Shown here one piece after another: positions 4,678-27,215 of a stretch of DNA of 64,000 nucleotides. How positions within the stretch are numbered: the stretch's first letter is position 1; each line of letters starts with the position of its first letter. The stretch is from Desulfuromusa kysingii. GTDB taxonomy: Bacteria > Desulfobacterota > Desulfuromonadia > Desulfuromonadales > Geopsychrobacteraceae. The stretch spans positions 310,001 to 374,000 of the forward strand of contig NZ_FNQN01000002.1 in assembly GCF_900107645.1 (NCBI RefSeq), given 5' to 3'. The translations under genes were made by a program, and so were the position numbers. The notes under the pieces were generated by a model. The model was not told the origin of the DNA. It saw only the letters and a list, made by a program, of their open reading frames with translations, and ran no database searches.

Positions 4678-7062
4678 TTAATCTCTCAATTCAACGATAG
4701 TTATATTATCTCCGCCCTGAGCAATCGGAGCCGCATAAAAAGCTGTCACTCCAGCCTCTGCCGCAAGATGCTCACGCACAGCCCGGCGCAGAATCCCCTC
4801 TCCTGAACCGTGGATGATTTCAATTTTTTGCAAATTATTTAACATGGCGTCATCAATGAAGCGGCCTAGCTGCGCCATCGCTTCATCAACCCGTTGGCCA
4901 ATCAGTTTAATCTCTGGACGAATCTGCCGATCCACCATGCTACGTGAAACCTGACCGCCACCGCTGGAACTGGCAACAAAGCGACGTGGGCTAAACTGTT
5001 CCAACGCTTCAAGCGACTGGCGCATGCGTTTGCCACCAACCAATAAATCAATCTCCGCACCCTGAATCCGCTCGACCTGGGCCTCAACCCCTAACGCAGA
5101 AATCCGCACCAACTCCCCGACCGTTAGCTGGACCGGAACGCTGCCGGACCGCTTTAGTTTCGGTCTATAAGGGGACAAGTCTGCTCTGGCAGCCGAAAAT
5201 TGCTGTTTTTCATCTATGGCCTGTTGCGGTGACACCGTGCCGGGCTTGCTCCTGCGCAAGACCTTCATCCGTGACTCAGTTGCAGCAATCAACTCATCAG
5301 CCTGTCGGGTCGCCCTAGCAAGGATCTCCTTCTTTTTCTCCTTGAGCTGCTGCAGTTGTTGTTTGCGTAACTGTTGAGCTGAGTCAGCTTCAAGCCGCAA
5401 CCGTTTGGTCAGGACAAGTTCCTGATCGAGCTCCTGCTGTCTGCGATTCAACTTTATCAACAAAGCACTATGGTCATGCTCTTCCTGACCAAGGTATTGA
5501 ACCGCACGCTGTAAAACATGTTGCGGCAATCCCAATCGTTTAGCTGTCGTCAACGCACTGCTGGCTCCGGGGATTCCATAACGGAGTCGATACGTTGGTG
5601 CCAGAGTTTCAGGATCAAACTCAACCGCCGCATTCTCAATCGCAGGCTGCCCGTGAGCAAAATGCTTCAACTGACCCAAATGGGTAGTCAGCAGCGTCTT
5701 GGCTCCCTGCTGGCAAAGCTGATCAAGCACCGCTTGAACCAGAGCCGCACCTTCTGCAGGATCGGTTCCCGTCCCCGCCTCATCAAGCAGAACCAGAGTT
5801 TCAGCATCAGCTTGTTCAAGAATTTCCCGCATTTTCAGCAAGTGACCTGAAAAAGTTGATAAACTCTGCGCAATGCTTTGCTGATCACCGATATCAACAT
5901 GCAGATGCTGATAGAGATGCAAGCGGCTCTCCGGGTGACAGGGAACATGTAGCCCTGAACGCAGCATCAGCAACTGTAGACCCAATGTCTTCAAAGCAAC
6001 GGACTTACCCCCGGTATTCGGGCCACTGATCACTAGAGCGTGACAATCCTTCCCCAGCAACACATCGATCCCAACCGCAGCATCATGATCAAAACGACCG
6101 TCGATCTCCATCAACAGAGGGTGCCGCGCTTGTTTTAATTCAATGACCGAATCACTGGCCAACTCTGGCCGGCACCCCTGATATCCACGAGACAACCGCC
6201 CCGCCGCAAAGCGAAGATCAATCCGGGCCAGTGTTTTCTGATTGTTTTGCAGCACCGGCGTATCACGACGCACCAGCCCTGCCAACTCCAGTAAAATCCG
6301 CCGTTCTTCCCGCTGCTCTTCCCGCGCTAATTGTTGTAGACGGTTGTTCCCCTCCAACACCTGCGAAGGCTCCAGATAGAGGGTCTGGCCACTAGCTGAC
6401 TCATCTTGCACAAAACCTTTCAGTTGGCCACGGCAATCACTTTTCAGTGGCACGACATAGCGGTTATTGCGGATAGTTATCAGCCGTTCCTGAAACAGGC
6501 TCGAAGAGTGCTCACCGGTTAACAACTGGTCTAGTTGCTGCTTGATACGACTACGCGTCTGGCGGATCTGATAACGCAAATCTCCCAACACAAATGACGC
6601 ACTATCGAGCAGTTCACCACGGGACCCAATTGAGTCTTGCAGGCGCCGTTGCAATTCAGCCAGAGGAGTTATGTTAAAGGCTAAAGTCGCGAGAGAGAGA
6701 TCTTGACTCTGCGTCTTAAACCAGAGGCGACAATCCTCCATAACCCGCAACGACTGCACAACTTTCAGCAACTCTTCAGTGGCAATCAGACTCCCTTCAG
6801 CCCGGACCTGACCAAGCAACTCGGTCAAATCCCAGCAACCACCAAGGGATGGGGCCTGGCCATCATTGAGACATTGGACAGCCTCATCCACTTCAGTCAA
6901 AGCGGCCTCAATATCAACTTGAGCTGACAGAGGCTGCAATTGCTCAGCAGACAGACGCCCTGGCTCTGACTGAGTTTGACCGGCTAGAAGCCCCTTTAAC
7001 CGGGGATATTCCAGACGTTGCATTGCCGTTTCACTACAGATCATCGCCTGATTATTGTCCAA
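4678..7062 (-). CDS. mutS2: MutS2-family ATPase/endonuclease
   Basis: This 794-residue MutS2 lacks the mismatch-binding domain of MutS. It has a core and clamp region, an ABC-type ATPase domain with Walker A GPNTGGKS at residues 347-354, a Walker B segment ending LVLLDEAGTGTDP, a long Gln/Glu/Lys-rich coiled coil, and a C-terminal Smr domain (IEIIHGSGEG). MutS2 proteins act on branched DNA and suppress recombination. In some bacteria they also rescue collided ribosomes, so either role is possible. The start overlaps the end of cvpA by 11 nt and the stop is 3 nt from dnaG, consistent with a single operon. Confidence 0.97.
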   Translation of the reverse strand: MDNNQAMICSETAMQRLEYPRLKGLLAGQTQSEPGRLSAEQLQPLSAQVDIEAALTEVDEAVQCLNDGQAPSLGGCWDLTELLGQVRAEGSLIATEELLKVVQSLRVMEDCRLWFKTQSQDLSLATLAFNITPLAELQRRLQDSIGSRGELLDSASFVLGDLRYQIRQTRSRIKQQLDQLLTGEHSSSLFQERLITIRNNRYVVPLKSDCRGQLKGFVQDESASGQTLYLEPSQVLEGNNRLQQLAREEQREERRILLELAGLVRRDTPVLQNNQKTLARIDLRFAAGRLSRGYQGCRPELASDSVIELKQARHPLLMEIDGRFDHDAAVGIDVLLGKDCHALVISGPNTGGKSVALKTLGLQLLMLRSGLHVPCHPESRLHLYQHLHVDIGDQQSIAQSLSTFSGHLLKMREILEQADAETLVLLDEAGTGTDPAEGAALVQAVLDQLCQQGAKTLLTTHLGQLKHFAHGQPAIENAAVEFDPETLAPTYRLRYGIPGASSALTTAKRLGLPQHVLQRAVQYLGQEEHDHSALLIKLNRRQQELDQELVLTKRLRLEADSAQQLRKQQLQQLKEKKKEILARATRQADELIAATESRMKVLRRSKPGTVSPQQAIDEKQQFSAARADLSPYRPKLKRSGSVPVQLTVGELVRISALGVEAQVERIQGAEIDLLVGGKRMRQSLEALEQFSPRRFVASSSGGGQVSRSMVDRQIRPEIKLIGQRVDEAMAQLGRFIDDAMLNNLQKIEIIHGSGEGILRRAVREHLAAEAGVTAFYAAPIAQGGDNITIVELRD

Positions 7063-7537
7063 TCAAACTTCGGCTTCCCATAAATATTGATTCTCCGAGA
7101 GTGGCAAACGGTGGCGCCAACTGTGAGGCCTTGATCTTCCCTCTGACAAAATCGGGAGCAACGGAAGAGTTGAGAGCGAGGACGATCATTGACAGGACCA
7201 CTACACCCTGGACCACCCCGAATATCGCCCCTGCTAAGCGGTTAAACCCACCAAGAAAAATAAGTTTAACAAACCGGTTGAGGACAAAACCAATAACGGC
7301 AAAAAGGAAAACCAGAAGTAAAAATATTGCGAGGAATGAGCCCCAGACGCACAGCTTATCTGGCAAGCTGAAAGAATCTTGCAGCAGTTGCGCCAAGGGC
7401 AAGTAAAAGGTAAAAGCAAAGACTCCACCCAAAACCAGCCCGAGTAACGAACAAACCTCTTTCAGTAACCCCCGGAAAATCCCCTTAAAAAGGAAGAAAA
7501 CAAGGACCACCAATATGACAATATCAACCAACCCCAA
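7052..7537 (-). CDS. cvpA: CvpA family membrane protein
   Basis: The protein has 161 residues and four predicted membrane segments. It begins with the family-typical LVDIVILVVLVFFLFKG and continues with a GxxRGLLKEV segment, and its size is normal for CvpA. CvpA is an inner-membrane protein linked to colicin V production and to envelope homeostasis; its biochemical role is unresolved. It is embedded between yqeY (14-nt gap) and mutS2 (11-nt overlap). A mutS2 neighbour is common for this family. Confidence 0.9.
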   Translation of the reverse strand: MGLVDIVILVVLVFFLFKGIFRGLLKEVCSLLGLVLGGVFAFTFYLPLAQLLQDSFSLPDKLCVWGSFLAIFLLLVFLFAVIGFVLNRFVKLIFLGGFNRLAGAIFGVVQGVVVLSMIVLALNSSVAPDFVRGKIKASQLAPPFATLGESIFMGSRSLIGQ

Positions 7538-7551
7538 GAATCACTCCATCG

Positions 7552-7998
7552 TTACCCTGCCAGAAGTTCCCGCACCAACTGATTGACAACCTTGCCATCA
7601 GCAGAGCCTTTCGTCTTCGCCATAACCAGCGGCATCACCTTCCCCATATCTTTCATGGATGCTGCACCAATCTCCGCAATCACTGATGTCACAATACTGC
7701 GAATTTCAGCTTCATCCAGTTGGGCGGGAAGATACTGCTGTAAAACCGCCAATTCAGCCTCTTCTTTAGCTGCCAACTCGGGACGGCCATTGTCGCTGTA
7801 CATCTGTGCGGCTTCGCGACGCTGCTTCACTGCAGTACTGATCACACCAAGAATACCGTCATCATCAAGCTCTTGTTGTATTTCGATCTCTTTATTTTTG
7901 ATGGCACTGCGCAACTGCCGAATCGTTCCAAGACGGTCCGCTTGTTTGGCCTTCATCGCCTCTTTCATATCCTGCATAAGTTGATCTTTGAGATTCAT
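7552..7998 (-). CDS. yqeY: GatB/YqeY domain protein
   Basis: This 148-residue stand-alone YqeY protein (KDQLMQDMKEAMKAKQ at the start, GSADGKVVNQLVRELL at the end) resembles the C-terminal tail domain of GatB, the amidotransferase subunit that contacts tRNA. Free-standing YqeY proteins are thought to have tRNA-related or amidotransferase-like activity, but this is not proven. It is the first gene of the yqeY-cvpA-mutS2-dnaG-rpoD run. In many relatives rpsU precedes it, but no S21-like frame is visible upstream here. Confidence 0.93.
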   Translation of the reverse strand: MNLKDQLMQDMKEAMKAKQADRLGTIRQLRSAIKNKEIEIQQELDDDGILGVISTAVKQRREAAQMYSDNGRPELAAKEEAELAVLQQYLPAQLDEAEIRSIVTSVIAEIGAASMKDMGKVMPLVMAKTKGSADGKVVNQLVRELLAG

Positions 7999-8532
7999 AG
8001 ATTCCCCTGTGAAAAAGAAAGCCTGCCAGATCTATACTCTGGCTCTTTAAATACAAAGAGGGTGTCCGGAAAATTCCGACACCCGCAATAAAATATGGTC
8101 TCTAACAAACGCCACTGATATTTTGCCTTCAGCTTATATACTCATTTAAAATAATCTGGTAGTTTATGTGTTTCAAAGCCATAAAGCAAGATTTCTTTAC
8201 ATGTACCACTTGCTTTTTGCTTTCGCACGTATTTTGGAGCTGAATAAGAATTGATGATCAGCTCCAATAGCACGACAGGAATTGATCGACACCGAGCCCT
8301 TAAGGGAACTTCAAAGGTGAACAGAAGCCATCAGAACGAATGCTAAAGAGCCTATCCCCGGATCCGATTCATCAACGCAAACCGCCAAGATCGCTCCTCA
8401 TATCTGGAGCCGCAGCAGATGAACCCTTTTACCTCTCCTCAAGGCATGATATAAACGCCCATATTCTTCGTATGTTCTTTACTGTTATTCCATAAGATCA
8501 AAGCTGATTGAGATCAAACTTGGCGGGGAAGC
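7999..8532. other. 534-bp divergent intergenic region with two inverted repeats
   Basis: This region separates the yqeY operon (minus) from the sensor kinase gene (plus). It holds an imperfect hairpin at 8060-8084 (GGGTGTC...GACACCC) without a good T-tract, and a clean inverted repeat at 8234-8267. I see no coding sequence and no rpsU. The promoters of both flanking operons must lie here, but I could not assign them with confidence. Confidence 0.5.
8234..8267. repeat. 10-bp inverted repeat, candidate operator
   Basis: TTGGAGCTGA at 8234-8243 is exactly mirrored by TCAGCTCCAA at 8258-8267 across a 14-bp spacer. No T-run follows on either strand, so it reads better as a protein-binding dyad between divergent operons than as a terminator. 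The binding protein is unknown. Confidence 0.45.
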
Positions 8533-10500
8533 ATGATTCGCAATCTTTTTGCATTTTTCAATAACCTGAAAATTCGCTGGAAAATGCTGGTGATCACCCT
8601 ACCTTTGTTGGTCTTCCCCATTTTTTTGCTGGGCGGGATGATCGGTTACATTGCCACGACCGAAGCCTATAAGGGGATCATTGACGCGAGCAAAGCCGAT
8701 CTTGACCACATGGCCAGCTTCACCCTCGACCTTCTGGATGGTCATCATCGCCAATTCGAGGTCTATCGCGAAGACAAAAAAAAGACCGTTCGCCAAGAGA
8801 TGAAAACCCTGGTCGAGTTGGCCTACACGTTGATCAATGAGCAACAACATCAATACGATCTCGGCAATATCAGCCTCTCAGAAGCCCAGCAATCGACCAG
8901 AAACAGCTTCAAAGATGTCAGTATCGGCAGCAGCGGCTATCTGTTCGCAGTCACCAGCAAAGGAGAGCTAAGGGTTCATCCCACCCGTGAGGGGGAGAAC
9001 ATTATTAGCGCAAAAGATAAAAATGGTCGTCTGTTTATCCGTGAACTGGCCGAGCGGGCGCTTAATTCCAAGCCCGGAGAGGTTCTCTACACCATCTATC
9101 CCTGGCGCAATGAAACTCTGGGAGACAAACACCCGCGCAACAAAATTGTCGCGTTCCGATATTACCCACAATGGGACTGGATCGTCGCGGCCGGGGGATA
9201 TCTGGATGAAACATACGATGATCCAGAATTTGAACAACAATCCCTGATCACCCTCTCACAACAAATTAAAAGCAAAAAGGTTGGCATCACCGGCTACGTT
9301 TATTGTATGACGAGCGACGGGGTCATGACCATCCATCCCGATGCAGAGGGTCAAAGTCTCATCTCCGAACAAGACACCACCGGGCACAAATTTATCGCTG
9401 AGATGACAGAGAAGAAAGATGGCTGGATTCGCTATCCATGGCTAAACAAGGGGGATAAAAAAGCACGGATGAAGATCGTCCGTTATCGCTACTTTGCACC
9501 CTGGGACTGGATTATTGCTGTCAGCAGCTACGAAGATGAATTCTATCAAGCGGCCAACAATCTTAAATGGCGCATTGCCGGATATGTCCTGCTGTTACCA
9601 ATCTTAATAGGAGTTGTTGCCACCCTTCTACTATTTTTAGCCTCCAAAGTCATGACCGATCCGATCCATAAAATGATCACCGTCATCCGTAGAGTTAAGC
9701 AAGGACGATTGGATGAGCAGGTGCCGGTCACCAGTCATGATGAAATTGGTGAGCTGGCCATCTCTTTTAACCGGATGACACGCATACTGAAAAAAAACAA
9801 GGAACTGGAAGCCACCCTAGCCCAGCAGGGAAAGATGGCGTCCCTTGGCGTTTTATCCTCAGGTGTGGCTCATGAAATCAACAACCCCCTAGGAGTCATT
9901 CTCGGCTATGCAGGACACTTGGAAAAAAAGATTACCCCAGAAGATCCGAACTACGCCTTCATCCATGAGATAAAACGGGAAAGTAAACGCTGCAAAAAAA
10001 TTGTTCAGAACCTCCTGAGCTATTCACGCACACCGCGACCGGTCCTTGAACCCACCGACATCAACCGCCTGCTCAGTCAAATCATTGATTTTGCCAGCAA
10101 TCACTCTGACCTGTTCAAAATTAATGTTATTGAAAACTTTAGCACGGATATCCCTAAGATTTCTGCTGACATGGACCAACTGCGACAGGTAACGATCAAT
10201 CTGCTCCTCAACGCTGCATCCGCATCTGCGGAAGGGGGAGAGATCCGGGTTGCAACCGGTCTCGACGGTGATCAGTTTGTCCGCATCGAATTTTCAGATG
10301 ACGGTGAAGGTATTTCCGAGGAAAACCTTGAAAAAATCTTTGAACCGTTCTTCACAACAAAAACCAAAGGAACCGGACTGGGTCTGGCTATCACCAAACA
10401 GATCATTGAAATGCATCAGGGAGAAATCTTCATCGATTCAGAGACAGGCAAGGGGACGACAGTCGTCATTCGCTTACCGCTAACCCGTGAAGAATATTAA
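8533..10500 (+). CDS. Membrane sensor histidine kinase with two Cache-type repeats
   Basis: This 655-residue kinase has a TM segment at about 18-41 and a large periplasmic region holding two Cache-like repeats: [19 protein letters not shown] near 132-150 and [19 protein letters not shown] near 251-269, each ending in WDWIVAAG or [10 protein letters not shown] second TM follows at 346-371, then a HAMP linker, a HisKA domain with phospho-acceptor His447 in [10 protein letters not shown], and HATPase boxes ([21 protein letters not shown]). Cache domains usually bind small organic ligands such as carboxylates. The gene is 26 nt upstream of an NtrC-type regulator, its likely partner. The ligand is unknown. 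Confidence 0.94.
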
Positions 10501-15120: not shown

Positions 15121-15471
15121 CTATTCATAAGCCAAGGGAACGGCACAGATAAACTTGAAATCCTCAGTCGCTGAAGAGTTGCGATACTGATGTTTTTCGT
15201 TCGGAAGCACCATGGAAAAATCTCCCCCTTTAACCGGATGCTGGTGACCGTCAGCATCGACCAACACCCCTTCACCTTGAAGAATATAATTTAAATGTTC
15301 CACATCATGAATATGATAAGGAGTATTGCCTCCCGGGCTGATCGTAAAAACCCGAAAAGAAAAATTCGGAGCTCCATCGGTCTTCCCCAAAGGGACTTGC
15401 TTGGCAACATTAACCGCCCCCTCCATCGACATCGGTATTGTAGGAACCTGATCTAACGAAGTGATTTTCAT
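15121..15471 (-). CDS. Single-domain cupin protein
   Basis: The protein has 116 residues from the ATG at 15471, behind a GGAGG motif. The conserved beta-barrel metal site is visible as YHIHDVEHLNYILQGEG (motif 1, His-x-His plus Glu/His) and VLPNEKHQYRN (motif 2 His). Small cupins of this kind may be dioxygenases, isomerases or sugar/oxidant-binding proteins, so no substrate can be assigned. It is transcribed towards the MFS cluster, but a hairpin at 14981-15016 lies between them. Confidence 0.85.
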   Translation of the reverse strand: MKITSLDQVPTIPMSMEGAVNVAKQVPLGKTDGAPNFSFRVFTISPGGNTPYHIHDVEHLNYILQGEGVLVDADGHQHPVKGGDFSMVLPNEKHQYRNSSATEDFKFICAVPLAYE

Positions 15472-15681
15472 AAACAACCTCCTTGAGAGCGTAATATAGG
15501 ACGAGTCAGTTAAGATAACAGACCCGCACTCTTACAACAAGAAGCCAAATAGGCACACATTCATAGGGTAATAATGTTGTTATCTCTTCAGCCATTGTGC
15601 TAAATTTCTCGGGTAATTTCTCACAAAGACGCCTGTTTCGAAAGAAAACCTCTTTCTAGCCAACATTTTGGAGAAGAATCG

Positions 15682-16755
15682 ATGAATCCTGCTACACTGA
15701 TTCCCACACCTGATGCCATTTCCGCGCCCTGGGGCTGGTTCTATGTTCTGCTTTTGCTCACCTTCCTGCTACACGTTCTGGTCATGAACGCCATGCTCGG
15801 TGGCGGCATCATTGCCTTATTCAGTGCTCTGCGCGGTGACCAGCAAAACACCCTATTAGGCAAAGAGTTCGGTTATAAATGGCCATACACCATCGCCTTT
15901 GCAGTTAACATGGGAGTTGCACCACTGCTGTTTGTTCAGGTTTTATACGGTCAGTTCATTTATAGCAGTTCGATTCTCATGGCTGTCTGGTGGTTCTCCA
16001 TCTTCGGCCTGGTGATTCTGGCCTACTACAGTGCCTATATTTATGACTTCAAGTTTGAGGCCTTAGGAAATCCACGCATCTTTTTACTGGAATTCTCGGT
16101 CTTCATTTTGCTTTTTGTCGCCTTCCTTTTCAGCAACAATATGACCCTGATGCTCCAGCCAGAAAAGTGGCAAGCTTATTTCAGTAATGGTGGCGGCACA
16201 TTGCTGAACTTAAGCGATCCCACATTGTATCCTCGCTATCTCCACTTTGTCGTTGGGTCTGTCGCGGTCGCAGGATTGTTCCTCGCCCTTGTCGGTCATT
16301 TCCGTTTCACGAAAAGTAACGTCGATCAAAATTTTCTAATTGCGCAGGGGATGACCTATTTCACGTACGCCACGGCTATGCAAATTTTTATCGGTTTCTG
16401 GTTTCTGCTTGCCTTGCCTAAAAACGTGATGATGATCTTCATGGGCGGCAGCGTTCTCAGCACCATTCTGTTATTAGCTGGAATCATTCTTGGATTTACA
16501 GCACTTTATTTCGGTTATAAAAAACGGGTTGTTCTCACCTCTGCCATCGCCCTGGTGACATTAATCGTGATGGTCATTATGCGTGATCTGGTCCGGTCCG
16601 CCTATCTACAACCCTATTTTCAACTTTCGGATCTGACTGTTGAACCACAGTATTCTCCTCTGATTTTCTTCCTGCTCGTCTTTGCTGGTGGACTACTTTT
16701 AATTGGTTACATGCTTAAACTTGCCTTTGGCTGCCGCAAGGAGGTCACAAAATGA
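15682..16755 (+). CDS. CydA-superfamily-like membrane protein (first of a pair)
   Basis: The protein has 357 residues, nine or more TM segments and no c-type heme motif. The first TM has a LLHVLVMNAMLGGG element (His31) that parallels IVHVLVAHFAVGGG in the next gene, so the two look like distant paralogues. The second gene clearly carries CydA-type motifs, so this one is best read as its membrane partner in a bd-like quinol-oxidising or electron-transfer complex. The genes overlap by 4 nt, indicating translational coupling. I could not recognise it from sequence alone, and the assignment leans on that comparison. Confidence 0.65.
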   Translation: MNPATLIPTPDAISAPWGWFYVLLLLTFLLHVLVMNAMLGGGIIALFSALRGDQQNTLLGKEFGYKWPYTIAFAVNMGVAPLLFVQVLYGQFIYSSSILMAVWWFSIFGLVILAYYSAYIYDFKFEALGNPRIFLLEFSVFILLFVAFLFSNNMTLMLQPEKWQAYFSNGGGTLLNLSDPTLYPRYLHFVVGSVAVAGLFLALVGHFRFTKSNVDQNFLIAQGMTYFTYATAMQIFIGFWFLLALPKNVMMIFMGGSVLSTILLLAGIILGFTALYFGYKKRVVLTSAIALVTLIVMVIMRDLVRSAYLQPYFQLSDLTVEPQYSPLIFFLLVFAGGLLLIGYMLKLAFGCRKEVTK

Positions 16756-19394
16756 ACTATCCAGTCTGGGAACTCACAACTTTTGGTGGCGGTTTTCTGA
16801 TTGCATTTGTCGCAATCGTCCACGTTCTGGTCGCCCACTTTGCCGTTGGCGGCGGGCTCTATCTGATCATGCTGGAAAAAAAGGCCTACAAGGACGATGA
16901 CGCCGGCTTACTCGATTATGTCAAAAAACACAGCAAATTCTTTCTATTGGTTTCAATGGTCTTTGGTGGTCTCACTGGGGTCGGCATCTGGTGGACAATC
17001 GCCCTCTTGAATCCTGCGGCAACATCCAGTCTTATCCATATCTTCGTCTTTGGCTGGGCAGCGGAGTGGGTCTTCTTCGTCACCGAAATTGTCGCCCTGT
17101 TTATCTACTTCTATACCTTTGGCAAGATGGACCGCAAGAACCATATCATCATCGGCTGGCTCTACTTCTTCAGCGCCTGGATGTCACTGTTTTTGATCAA
17201 TGGCATCATCGGCTTCATGTTGACCCCCGGCGGATGGATTGAAGACCACAACTTCTGGTCGGGTTTCTTCAATCCGACCATGTGGCCTTCATTGATTTTC
17301 CGTACCGGCATCTCCTTGACCTTGTGTGGAGTCTTCGGCTTTATTACCGCCTCCTTTGTTAAAGATGCAAACCTGCGTCAAAAAGTGATGCGCACCTGCT
17401 CTGCCTGGGTTGGTTTCCCCTTTATCCTGATGATCTTAGGTGGTTGGTGGTACTTTAAAGCCATCCCGGAACCAGCGATAACCCTGATCCTTGAAAAATC
17501 ACCGCAGGTGGGCGACTTCCTACTGCTGCTGGCCTGGGTCATGCCCCTTCTGTTTATCGCCTCAATGATCATGGCAATCCGCTTACCCAACAGCTTTCAG
17601 CGGTTCTTCAGTTTTGTCATCGTCGCTATAGCTCTGATCTATTTTGGTGCGTTTGAATTTGTCCGTGAGGGGGGACGCCACCCCTACATTATCTATGATC
17701 ATATGTATGCCAATCAGGTTTACACCAAAGATGTTCCTGACATCCAGAAAGCCGGGTTCCTCGCCACGGCAAAATGGACCGAGAACTCAGACGTCAGTGA
17801 TCAAAATCTTATCGCCGCCGGTCGGGACCTCTTCAAGTTTCAATGCAGCGCCTGTCACTCTGTCGATGGCATCCTCAATGACATCAAGCCACTGGTTAAA
17901 AAGTATGACAGTGTCTTCGGTATGGATTCAAAACTCAACGGTCTCGGCAAACTAAATCAGTACATGCCTCACTTCATGGGGACCCGTGAAGAGCGCTTTG
18001 CTCTCGCCAGCTATATTGTCTACAGCCTGAATCAAGTTGATGATCTCAACATGGGGAATCCAGTTGTGGAAGCCAAAGAGCTACCCGTCGCTATTCCTGC
18101 CTTCGACAAAGAAAAAGATGACTACGTGCTGCTGGCATGGAATAACCTGGGCATGCATTGCGTCTCTGACAGCGACCCCTACTGGATTCTGTTACCTCCC
18201 GCGAATGACCTCTATGCTCAGCTGGTAAAACGTGGCGATTCTCCAGAAATTATTACTGAGGGGGTTGAAATCACCTATCAGGTCGAAGAAGGTTTTGAAT
18301 ATCCCGAAAAACAAGTCCGTTTTTGGGAATTTGCCGATAAATTGCTCGGCAAAGATCTCGCCCCCGGTGTTGGTGTGAGCGGCTTGAAAGTTGCCGGGAA
18401 AATGGCCCTCGCAGAGGACCATCGTGCCTTCACCGCAGCGTTTGTTCCAGTGGTCCCTTATCCTGCGGATGGCAGCTACAACCCCTATCCGATCTTTACC
18501 ATCACGGCTAAAGACAAGGAGACCGGGAAAATATTAATGACTACCAAAACCGTCGCTCCGACCTCCACCGAGATGGGCTGTAAAAATTGTCATGATGGTG
18601 GTTGGCGAGTCGATGGGGTGGCTGGTTTTTCTGATGAAACCAGTCTTGATGTCCTCGTTGCCCACGATAAGAACAGCGGCACCAACCTCGTTGAGAGGGC
18701 TAAAAATGGGGAACCGATGCTCTGTCAATCCTGTCATGCTGACCCGGTATTGGGGACCAAAGGCAACCCTGAACTCCTGAATTTCCCTGCAGCGATTCAT
18801 GGCTGGCATGCCAACTTCCTCACCGACCGGGAAGGGATGCAGGCCTGCGCAGCATGTCACCCTTCACGTCCCGATGGCCCGACACAGTGCTTCCGCAGTC
18901 ACCATTCCGAATTTATGGATTGCACTAACTGTCACGGCACCATGGAAGACCATTCACTTAGTCTCCTGAAACATGAACTGGATGCTGGCAAAAAAGGGGC
19001 TGCCAGATTAATGGAAAACTTGCAACCGCGAGTTGTTGAGACTGTTGCCGAGATTAATCCACGTCTCCCTTGGCTCAATGAACCGGATTGCCTCAATTGT
19101 CATGAGGAGTTTGAAATGGGGAACACAACCGATGCTTTCAACACCTGGACAGAAAACGCTGAAGGGTTGTACCGAAATCGCCACGATCAAATGGAGGCCA
19201 TGATGTGTGAGGCTTGTCATGGCAGCACCCATGCGGTATATCCAGCAACATTGAATAAGTTCGGGACCAACCGTGACAGTATCCAACCGTTACAATACCA
19301 GGGTAACAACCGCCCCATTGGCAATGATTGTACCGTCTGTCATACCGTTCAACCGGAGTTTGAAGGACATCACCCGAACTCATTACGATTGTAA
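16752..19394 (+). CDS. bd-oxidase-like CydA domain fused to octaheme c-type cytochrome
   Basis: The protein has 880 residues. Residues 1-300 are membrane-spanning with CydA-like landmarks: His24 in the first helix, a Glu-containing helix AAEWVFFVTEI (103-113) and GGRHPYIIYD at 307-316, matching the GRQPW region of bd oxidases. The segment around 180-200, where the b558 ligand is expected, lacks His. A monoheme domain follows (CSACH, 365-369), then an NNLGMHC segment near 464-470 and seven further CxxCH motifs (Cys610, 658, 699, 724, 780, 819, 860). The layout suggests quinol oxidation in the membrane with electrons passed to a periplasmic heme chain. Cytochrome-c-containing branches are known in the CydA superfamily, but I cannot assign this one. 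Confidence 0.85.
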   Translation: MNYPVWELTTFGGGFLIAFVAIVHVLVAHFAVGGGLYLIMLEKKAYKDDDAGLLDYVKKHSKFFLLVSMVFGGLTGVGIWWTIALLNPAATSSLIHIFVFGWAAEWVFFVTEIVALFIYFYTFGKMDRKNHIIIGWLYFFSAWMSLFLINGIIGFMLTPGGWIEDHNFWSGFFNPTMWPSLIFRTGISLTLCGVFGFITASFVKDANLRQKVMRTCSAWVGFPFILMILGGWWYFKAIPEPAITLILEKSPQVGDFLLLLAWVMPLLFIASMIMAIRLPNSFQRFFSFVIVAIALIYFGAFEFVREGGRHPYIIYDHMYANQVYTKDVPDIQKAGFLATAKWTENSDVSDQNLIAAGRDLFKFQCSACHSVDGILNDIKPLVKKYDSVFGMDSKLNGLGKLNQYMPHFMGTREERFALASYIVYSLNQVDDLNMGNPVVEAKELPVAIPAFDKEKDDYVLLAWNNLGMHCVSDSDPYWILLPPANDLYAQLVKRGDSPEIITEGVEITYQVEEGFEYPEKQVRFWEFADKLLGKDLAPGVGVSGLKVAGKMALAEDHRAFTAAFVPVVPYPADGSYNPYPIFTITAKDKETGKILMTTKTVAPTSTEMGCKNCHDGGWRVDGVAGFSDETSLDVLVAHDKNSGTNLVERAKNGEPMLCQSCHADPVLGTKGNPELLNFPAAIHGWHANFLTDREGMQACAACHPSRPDGPTQCFRSHHSEFMDCTNCHGTMEDHSLSLLKHELDAGKKGAARLMENLQPRVVETVAEINPRLPWLNEPDCLNCHEEFEMGNTTDAFNTWTENAEGLYRNRHDQMEAMMCEACHGSTHAVYPATLNKFGTNRDSIQPLQYQGNNRPIGNDCTVCHTVQPEFEGHHPNSLRL

Positions 19395-25813: not shown

Positions 25814-27115
25814 TTACTTCATTGCGTCTTGCAGTTCATCTTTACTGAGCTTCCGTGGCGCATCCATCAACAATTGCTTTTCCAGTTCTGGATACGAGAG
25901 GTCTTTCTCTTGCAGGAAGATGTCATCATTACCGTGGCAGTTTTCACACATCACCTTTCCACCTTCTTTGTGAATCGGAGCAAGTTGCAAGAAGTGAGTT
26001 GTGTAAGGAACCCAGGCAGCCTTAGACTCAAGGTCTTTCTGCTGCAGATGAATCCCCATGTGGTTAAAAGCATCAGCTGAAGTTGTCCCGGTGGTATGAA
26101 CCATGGGATAAACTTTGCCGTCGAATTCACCTAACTTAAAGATATGCTCATCTTCAGGGACCCGGTTGTGACAGGCGACACAGGATTCATACTCAGTCCC
26201 GTGACAAGCCTGACAGCTAACGAACTCGCCATGAATTTCATGGGCTTCGTTTGTTGTCGCCGCATCTTGATGACAATCATAACAGCTGGCTTTGATCAGC
26301 CCCGGGCTCATCATGCCCAGTTGTTCTTGATCACCGCCACGACCATGATATTCCTGCTCGCTCCGATGACAGGAATTACAGTCCATTCCCAAGGCGACAT
26401 GGAGATTTTTCTCCTGGGTAAAGAAGCCAGCGCCTGCCAGATGGTGACAAGGGATACAAACTTGCAGGTTATCAGGCTTGACCTCGACCTTATGGTTGGC
26501 TTGCAGCCCAGCATTAGCTATCGGGGCGGTACCAATATGACAGGTGCCACAGGTCGCATGACAAGCCAGACAGTCCCCTTCCATGATTTGCCCCACCACA
26601 ACTTCTTTCTCATGAGTCTTGCCGAGACGAGCAGAAAGCTTATTGCGAACACCGGTCATATTGAAATGGATTGAAGTCTGGGCATTCTTGACAATATCCT
26701 GATGACAAGATGCGCAAATCTTTTGCCCCCCATCTGCCGTTGGATCTTTAATGATCCCTTCGTGCGCTAGCTTGACATCAGTCGCGTCAGGATTGCCACC
26801 GTGACAGAACTCACAAGATTGCCGACCATGGATGCGGTCGTTAACAAATTCCGGGCCGACATATAATCCTTGGGCCACAGTTTCAGCCGCAACATCATGG
26901 CCATAACCATCTTTAGTGTCTGCGGTGACTGAACGTAAATAATCCAGTTGACCATGACATACGAGACATTGGCTGGCATTTTTGGGGTTTGCATAAGATT
27001 TAGGTTGAACACTTGTATGACTGCTCTGGCCATGTGAGCTAGCGAAAACACCACCAGCCAGAAGTAAACTTAACAGCACGCTGAGACTAGCTACGAACAA
27101 AACTCTTTTAATCAT
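25814..27115 (-). CDS. Periplasmic undecaheme c-type cytochrome
   Basis: From the ATG at 27115 (behind GGAGG) the protein has 433 residues: a Sec signal peptide (cleavage near FASS, about 26) and eleven CxxCH heme-binding motifs (CLVCH at 50-54, CEFCH, CASCH, CLACH, CGTCH, CIPCH, CNSCH, CYDCH, CQACH, CVACH, CENCH). Adjacent CLACH and CGTCH motifs separated by only three residues resemble the packed heme pairs of some octaheme oxidoreductases. It should carry electrons in the periplasm or at the outer membrane. Its long leader contains a promoter flanked by palindromes shared with the tetR gene, so TetR-type repression is likely. The exact partner is unknown. Confidence 0.92.
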   Translation of the reverse strand: MIKRVLFVASLSVLLSLLLAGGVFASSHGQSSHTSVQPKSYANPKNASQCLVCHGQLDYLRSVTADTKDGYGHDVAAETVAQGLYVGPEFVNDRIHGRQSCEFCHGGNPDATDVKLAHEGIIKDPTADGGQKICASCHQDIVKNAQTSIHFNMTGVRNKLSARLGKTHEKEVVVGQIMEGDCLACHATCGTCHIGTAPIANAGLQANHKVEVKPDNLQVCIPCHHLAGAGFFTQEKNLHVALGMDCNSCHRSEQEYHGRGGDQEQLGMMSPGLIKASCYDCHQDAATTNEAHEIHGEFVSCQACHGTEYESCVACHNRVPEDEHIFKLGEFDGKVYPMVHTTGTTSADAFNHMGIHLQQKDLESKAAWVPYTTHFLQLAPIHKEGGKVMCENCHGNDDIFLQEKDLSYPELEKQLLMDAPRKLSKDELQDAMK

Positions 27116-27215
27116 ATTTTCCTCCATTGTTGTTTTAATTCTTACGTGGCAGCGGTTCTGACGATTCAGAATCGGTTAAAGCGCTCCTTTCTAAAGATGA
27201 AGGGTTGAGAAAAAA

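Follow-up and report, generated by a model that had tools for sequence, protein, structure and literature searches.

The cytochrome bd superfamily is made up of the qOR, OR-C and OR-N families, of which OR-C and OR-N are described as having no quinol site and presumably receiving electrons from cytochrome c or another donor (PMC8509429, PMC13189123, PMC10839748, PMC11707229, PMC12342949). In one of these papers the non-quinol families are presumed to keep the four helices that bind two active-site hemes, and the same text calls for a bd enzyme with a donor other than quinol (PMC8509429). In CydAA' (the OR-N of Nitrospirota and Nitrospinota, and archaeal CydAA') two CydA paralogs replace CydA and CydB, and cytochrome c is proposed as the donor in OR-N (PMC10839748, PMC12342949, PMC6606698). 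The bd-like proteins TO_1 to TO_4 of Candidatus Manganitrophus are proposed to be fed by periplasmic carriers or complex-III-like parts (PMC9040806). Here we describe a pair of overlapping genes, referred to as A' and A, from Desulfuromusa kysingii (RefSeq assembly GCF_900107645.1, a genome of 3.74 Mb in 27 contigs), found in a stretch of 64,000 nucleotides of contig NZ_FNQN01000002.1 (positions 310,001 to 374,000; hereafter the window, in whose numbering the coordinates of the pair are given). The two proteins are paralogs within the cytochrome bd (CydA) superfamily, and we consider it probable from sequence comparisons that they form a bd-type oxygen reductase of the OR-C kind that oxidises cytochrome c and has an unusual fused eight-heme inlet. 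The features of the pair are as follows (aa, amino acids).

15682-16755, + strand: A' gene (P0001), 357 aa, encoding a CydA-superfamily paralog free of c hemes, identified by its ligand columns and profile match to A.
16752-19394, + strand: A gene (P0002), 880 aa, encoding a membrane domain, monoheme c domain, beta domain and heptaheme tail, identified by Pfam, CxxCH motifs and an AlphaFold model.
16752-17720, + strand: CydA-like membrane domain of A, residues 1-323, with eight long helices in the model and Z 30-32.5 over model residues 3-323.
16821-16823, + strand: codon for H24 of A, in the column of E. coli H19.
17085-17087, + strand: codon for E112 of A, in the column of E. coli E107.
17298-17300, + strand: codon for F183 of A, which replaces E. 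coli H186.
17667-17669, + strand: codon for E306 of A, in the column of E. coli E445.
R309 of A, + strand: in the column of E. coli R448.
17778-18029, + strand: monoheme cytochrome c domain of A, approximately residues 343-426, with C365xxC368-H369 and an invariant M405.
18111-18569, + strand: beta-rich domain without a heme motif, approximately residues 454-606, with no firm fold match (best Z 5.6).
18570-19391, + strand: heptaheme tail of A, approximately residues 607-880, with seven CxxCH motifs and eight further conserved His.

The open reading frames (ORFs) of A' and A lie on the same strand and share 4 bases, and a common helix-1 motif is found in both proteins (HVLVMNAMLGGG beginning at H31 of A' and HVLVAHFAVGGG beginning at H24 of A). 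The Pfam model PF01654 (cytochrome bd subunit I) matches A with 47 bits against a cut-off of 26.2, and the AlphaFold model of A, made from 58 aligned sequences (mean predicted local distance difference test score, pLDDT, 91.3; predicted template modelling score, pTM, 0.87), has eight long membrane helices where a simple hydropathy scan gave seven. When this model was compared with the PDB by Foldseek the top ten matches were CydA chains (E 3.4e-7 to 1.3e-5) followed by CydB chains, and for ten CydA entries VIA-align aligned 306-317 residues with the Z values of 30-32.5 listed above. The runners-up, alternative complex III subunits (Z 17.8) and polysulfide reductase (Z 16.3), have the general helix-bundle arrangement in common. 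The modelled membrane domain of A has the CydA fold, and the pattern of Lys and Arg in the loops, together with the eight helices, suggests that both of its ends, and hence the c hemes, are periplasmic.

Ligand positions were compared using hhalign profiles of 105 A, 96 A' and 26 canonical CydA sequences (25 from Desulfobacterota plus E. coli K-12), and independently in a MAFFT alignment of 59 A, 58 A' and 24 canonical CydA sequences plus eight bd-like proteins without c hemes, which we labelled OR-N-like by resemblance (L162 was excluded from these as its correct frame was unclear). In cytochrome bd, H19, E107, E445 and their neighbours are part of the heme d/b595 oxygen site, and H186 and M393 plus the Q-loop serve quinol oxidation. 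The A and canonical CydA profiles matched with a probability of 92.4 (E 5e-7). In the MAFFT alignment the H19 column is conserved in 58/59 A sequences (one gap), 57/58 A' and all OR-N-like and canonical sequences; E107 in 59/59 A, 8/8 OR-N-like and 24/24 canonical sequences and not in A'; E445 in 59/59 A and 24/24 canonical sequences, in one of the eight OR-N-like sequences (S in 7/8) and not in A'; R448 in 59/59 A, 8/8 OR-N-like and 24/24 canonical sequences; and P450 in 59/59 A. In the 105-row A alignment H24 is found in 104/104 rows and E112, E306 and R309 each in 105/105. The His of the H186 column is absent among the residues listed for A and is present in 57/58 A', 8/8 OR-N-like and 24/24 canonical sequences, and Met in the M393 column is held only by the OR-N-like and canonical proteins, with A and A' both lacking it. 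A has instead F183 in the H186 column, adjoining an invariant R184, and since the spacing between the H186 and E445 columns is 123 residues in A compared with 259 in E. coli, there is no space for a Q-loop, which in canonical cytochrome bd lies between helices 6 and 7. Because the H19, E107, E445 and R448 columns are kept while H186, M393 and the Q-loop are gone, A is best described, by its alignment columns, as having lost the quinol side and retained the oxygen side. Residues 307-312 of A are GGRHPY, with residue 310 being R in 80, K in 18, G in 4 and H in 3 of 105 relatives. A canonical cytochrome bd identity for A was considered and is ruled out, as A has no Q-loop, no b558 ligands (H186, M393) and no CydB partner.

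The partner A' has H31 (codon 15772-15774) in the H19 column and H188 (codon 16243-16245) in the H186 column, and this b558 His position is kept in 95/96 rows; E107, M393 and E445 are missing, and conservation extends to M297, R301 and R305. A' was matched by no Pfam or NCBIfam model, PF01654 included, at E <= 1, and since its AlphaFold model, built on 7 sequences, was unusable (pLDDT 51.5), the homology of A' rests on profiles. With the deep set of sequences the A' and A profiles matched with a probability of 98.4 (E 5e-15), compared with 28 in a shallow first comparison, and A' matched the canonical CydA profile weakly (probability 53.8, E 1e-4). The control profiles, CydB and the heme-copper oxidase COX1, gave probabilities of <=0.8, and the values for A' against CydB (0.4 and 0.3, versus 98.4 to A) rule out A' as a CydB.

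The eight CxxCH motifs of A start at residues 365, 610, 658, 699, 724, 780, 819 and 860, and a chance origin is ruled out by 10,000 shuffles of P0002, which gave a mean of 0.0128 motifs and a maximum of 1. The predicted c hemes are organised as 1 + 7, with a monoheme domain found family-wide plus a heptaheme module. The first c heme begins some 60 residues past E306 and is found throughout the A family (C365 and C368 in 104/104 rows, H369 in 105/105 and M405 in 104/104), M405 is the likely sixth ligand, and residues 349-426 weakly resemble the c domain of cytochrome cd1 (Z ~6 across 72-75 residues by VIA-align). In the tail, eight further His besides those of CxxCH are each conserved in 40 or 41 of 41 rows, and since these number eight for seven hemes, every tail heme could be bis-His; we infer that the tail is a wire and not an enzyme. 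The fold comparison hardly sampled the heptaheme tail as the membrane domain dominated the match list. In two close relatives nested within the eight-heme clade (L034 and L037), A is a 446-aa protein that ends behind its single heme, and the other seven are encoded by a separate ORF of 498-500 aa with an N terminus which resembles, by eye, a signal peptide; in L036 the heptaheme second ORF is interrupted by the contig end.

Homologs of P0002 were found in 16 of the 44 genomes of the window's GTDB family, matching across the CydA part in 14 of them, and the CydA part of A was matched in 54/297 genomes of a Desulfobacterota sample. A scan of named genomes, which queried two conserved peptides and is biased towards close relatives, provided 70 loci chiefly from Desulfobacterota, plus a few labelled Acidobacteria, Myxococcales, Krumholzibacteriia, Ignavibacteriae and Thermoguttaceae. 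The nearest named relatives by A protein are Desulfuromusa-type Desulfuromonadia, and named cultured strains with the pair include Malonomonas rubra DSM 5091 (L038) and Desulfogranum marinum DSM 2058 (L043). After excluding A rows of <380 aa or <100 bits, same-genome repeats (L001-L027 and L098) and rows identical over the first 200 residues, 104 A homologs contain eight CxxCH motifs in 38 cases, seven in 2 (one of which, L032, is cut by a contig end), four in 3, three in 25, two in 9 and one in 27; a heme number that varies in this way round a constant core is what one would expect if the inlet had been adapted to different pools of cytochromes.

A and A' occur together in this set, in which A' rows outside 320-520 aa or <25 bits were excluded. 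All 95 scored pairs, mainly from Desulfobacterota, are co-directional; 60 of them overlap and a further 30 lie no more than 60 bases apart. Of the nine A rows among the 104 without a scored A', two are at a contig end (L039, L057), four have a cut-off A' (L054, L064, L067, L174), two have an A' outside the length filter (L065, 289 aa; L111, an 858-aa frame), and one, L103, has no A' even in a wider stretch (L186). A and A' distances correlate with an r of 0.956 across 91 loci, a value reached in 0/2000 permutations that ignore shared descent. In the 105-row A tree, a quick search with Shimodaira-Hasegawa-like approximate likelihood ratio test (SH-aLRT) support only, the eight-heme forms are mainly in one 42-row clade (support 82, or 97 without L047) which includes four one-heme rows, and three further eight-heme rows (L112-L114) lie outside it; A' precedes A in the eight-heme forms and follows it in most of the rest. 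A 149-row tree placed canonical CydA, A, A' and the OR-N-like proteins each on one side of a branch (SH-aLRT 100, 99, 91 and 100, respectively), in a topology with long branches, chiefly that of L172 among A'.

A number of unusual arrangements were also seen. Two Ignavibacteria-type loci, L077 and L082 (~6001-9729), have two copies of A and then A', and two more distant pairs, L181 (3360-7141) and L183 (3747-7572), have an A' with two CxxCH motifs and a 287-291-aa ORF, also with two CxxCH motifs, 5' of A. Lone A'-like proteins of 329-342 aa were found in L172 (1192-2181, - strand) and L173 (1062-2090, - strand) with no A gene in the stretch examined; both places are matched by PF01654, and L172 also weakly matches the A' profile.

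A sequence-only reading of the window had described two overlapping genes with a common helix motif, the second protein having GRHPY, no His at the b558 position and eight CxxCH motifs, and had assigned both to the CydA superfamily and A to a place outside canonical cytochrome bd. All of this stands, with the assignment of A now supported by PF01654, fold and ligands, that of A' by its profile match to A, and the separate branch by the 149-row tree. That reading did not include the b558 His of A', the invariant oxygen-site columns of A or the 1 + 7 arrangement of the hemes.

The OR-C name reportedly comes from the work of Murali, Gennis and Hemp in 2021, and the hallmark of the family is a heme c on a CydA core. 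A has a c-type heme motif, a CydA core and no quinol site, and by this hallmark the pair fits the OR-C description and is a putative member of that family. OR-C (a CydA core with two active-site hemes, loss of the quinol site, one or more c-type hemes and cytochrome c as the presumed donor) is similar, but the pair described here differs in having a fused 1 + 7 heme chain on A and a second CydA paralog, A', as partner. The OR-N CydAA' proteins are alike in being paralog pairs; however, the OR-N-like rows are the reverse of A, with H186 and M393 kept (8/8), E445 absent (S in 7/8) and no c-heme motifs, and A, which bears c hemes and groups apart from these eight in the 149-row tree, is not part of a CydA paralog pair without c heme of the OR-N type. 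Canonical CydAB (qOR) has the same fold and the H19, E107, E445 and R448 positions found in A, but A has c hemes, no Q-loop and no b558 ligands, and CydB is missing. The TO_1 to TO_4 proteins have different partner proteins and a fused multiheme tail is unmentioned in the available text (PMC9040806). The octaheme tetrathionate reductase family TIGR04315 is linked to the pair by a gene that adjoins it in Geobacteraceae and by distant similarity over approximately four tail hemes, but the A tail is far under the family cut-off and has a His for each heme. No report of a fused eight-heme form or of the A/A' split of ligands was found in a full-text literature search that did not cover Murali et al. 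2021, the likeliest place, and as far as that search goes both are apparently new, with the CydA core and the OR-C kind already known.

For the cofactors, the direction of electron flow and the substrate we infer the following scheme. A and A' would form a single membrane complex in which helices 1-4 and the end of helix 8 of A (the H19, E107, E445 and R448 columns) bind two high-spin hemes, and O2 would be reduced at this diheme site with protons from the cytoplasmic side. With the b558/Q-loop quinol site lost from A, electrons would arrive from the periplasm, passing from periplasmic cytochromes to the bis-His heptaheme tail, from there to the His/Met monoheme domain directly after helix 8, and then to the E306-side heme of the diheme oxygen site, entering on the periplasmic side where the canonical b558 sits. 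A' would stand in for CydB, and its H188 may bind an additional b heme. Such a complex would allow an anaerobe with abundant multiheme cytochromes to drain electrons from its c-type network to traces of O2. With more hesitation, and with our doubts slightly outweighing our belief, we suggest that this is a split and rewired bd oxidase in which the quinol-side heme position was moved to a paralog and the oxygen-reducing subunit gained a covalent eight-heme wire, joining the periplasmic (perhaps extracellular) cytochrome network of metal- and sulfur-reducing anaerobes to O2 and bypassing both the quinone pool and complex III.

Several observations weigh against an oxidase role. Besides the pair, the genome contains a canonical cydA and a heme-copper oxidase gene (PF00115, 492 bits), leaving the need for a third oxidase unexplained; among the 18 genomes with an A match that also belonged to a second genome sample, canonical CydA gives a strong match in 11 and none in 7, and this co-occurrence does not decide function. 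The E99 column is ambiguous by about one residue, as hhalign places E105 of A there and MAFFT at least one column off, and no conserved site for an O2- or NO-linked regulator was found in the alignment upstream of the pair (consensuses for FNR, HcpR, Rex, NsrR and Fur were looked for). Every bd enzyme characterised up to 2021 is a quinol oxidase according to PMC8509429, and with the b558 His retained, A' might itself oxidise quinol. This last point leads to the main rival, which is the conclusion the sequence-only reading had drawn: the pair would be a quinol-to-cytochrome conduit and not a normal oxygen reductase, with A' oxidising menaquinol near a b558-like heme and electrons passing through the hemes of A and its eight c hemes to periplasmic or extracellular acceptors. 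H31, H188 and the conserved M297, R301 and R305 of A' could serve such a role, the host organisms are mostly anaerobes (judging from record titles and general knowledge), and an alternative-complex-III-like role, given quinone interaction, is allowed for the bd-like proteins of Nitrospina (PMC3578206). An ORF with eight CxxCH motifs is also found directly 3' of a three-heme pair in eight loci (L049, L051, L052, L053, L056, L059, L086 and L093), seven of which bear Geobacter, Trichlorobacter or Desulfuromonadaceae-type names, and the one case scanned, L049, belongs to TIGR04315 (E 3.1e-160); such a gene after the pair in Geobacteraceae would also fit an outward electron feed. However, A lacks the Q-loop, H186 and M393, A' has no known quinone site, the invariant E107, E445 and R448 columns of A would be unexplained in a pure conduit, and the invariant M405 would probably give the monoheme a high potential, suiting an oxidase better than a low-potential outlet. 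We regard the conduit as unlikely: the CydA descent, the missing b558 His of A and the real c hemes that it built on are retained, but the features lost from A are those of the quinol side and the heme d/b595 positions are kept.

It is improbable, in our view, that the same core uses cytochrome electrons to reduce another small molecule, most likely nitric oxide (NO). ODP/flavodiiron-type genes immediately 3' of A' in L065 and L079, both of one small clade, would suit O2 or NO equally and tie the pair to the removal of one or the other by a weak link, and an NnrU-family gene lies 3' of A in L043, NnrU being a name associated with NO metabolism. These links are rare and possibly due to chance. 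The 29 neighbour proteins scanned were chosen by eye from 304 listed, so that the two flavodiiron loci are no measure of enrichment; the neighbours of the pair are mostly unconserved and mostly unrelated housekeeping genes. The bd-type active sites are known as O2 reductases, and the cytochrome bd superfamily is not known to reduce NO. Least probable of all is an enzymatic role for the heptaheme tail itself (reduction of nitrite, hydroxylamine or tetrathionate, for example), with the membrane pair merely supplying it. The tail has a partial profile match to an OTR-family set (probability 89.9, E 1.7e-6, 109 columns) and weak matches to TIGR04315 and PDB 1sp3 (E 8e-4), but its score of 20.9 bits compares with the 375 bits required by TIGR04315, and as all seven motifs are CxxCH with bis-His possible throughout, no open or Lys-ligated heme is indicated; a tetrathionate-reductase-type enzyme was rejected on the weakness of this similarity and the availability of His for all hemes. 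A bd-type oxygen reductase fed by cytochromes remains the reading we favour.

Elsewhere in the window, a small cupin-like gene (15121-15477, - strand) is located upstream of the pair and reads away from it, and several Desulfuromusa-type loci (L028-L034) have a minus-strand ORF of comparable size in that position. On the 5' side of A', ACAACAAG and TTGTTGT stretches occur in inverted orientation approximately 40 bases apart, aligned among the window, L028, L029 and L030, and are possibly an operator. A 437-aa protein with many CxxCH motifs, another multiheme cytochrome, is encoded a few kb from the pair (25814-27127, - strand).

The pair makes the phylogenomic proposal of two non-quinol families among the three of the bd superfamily directly testable, as cultured strains carry the pair, with the presumed donor site linked to it covalently. 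If the oxidase reading is true, a bd enzyme would for the first time be shown to draw its electrons from cytochromes, and the oxygen defence of anaerobes would gain an O2 sink fed by multiheme cytochromes; if it is false, the pair would reveal a new quinol-to-cytochrome exit route.

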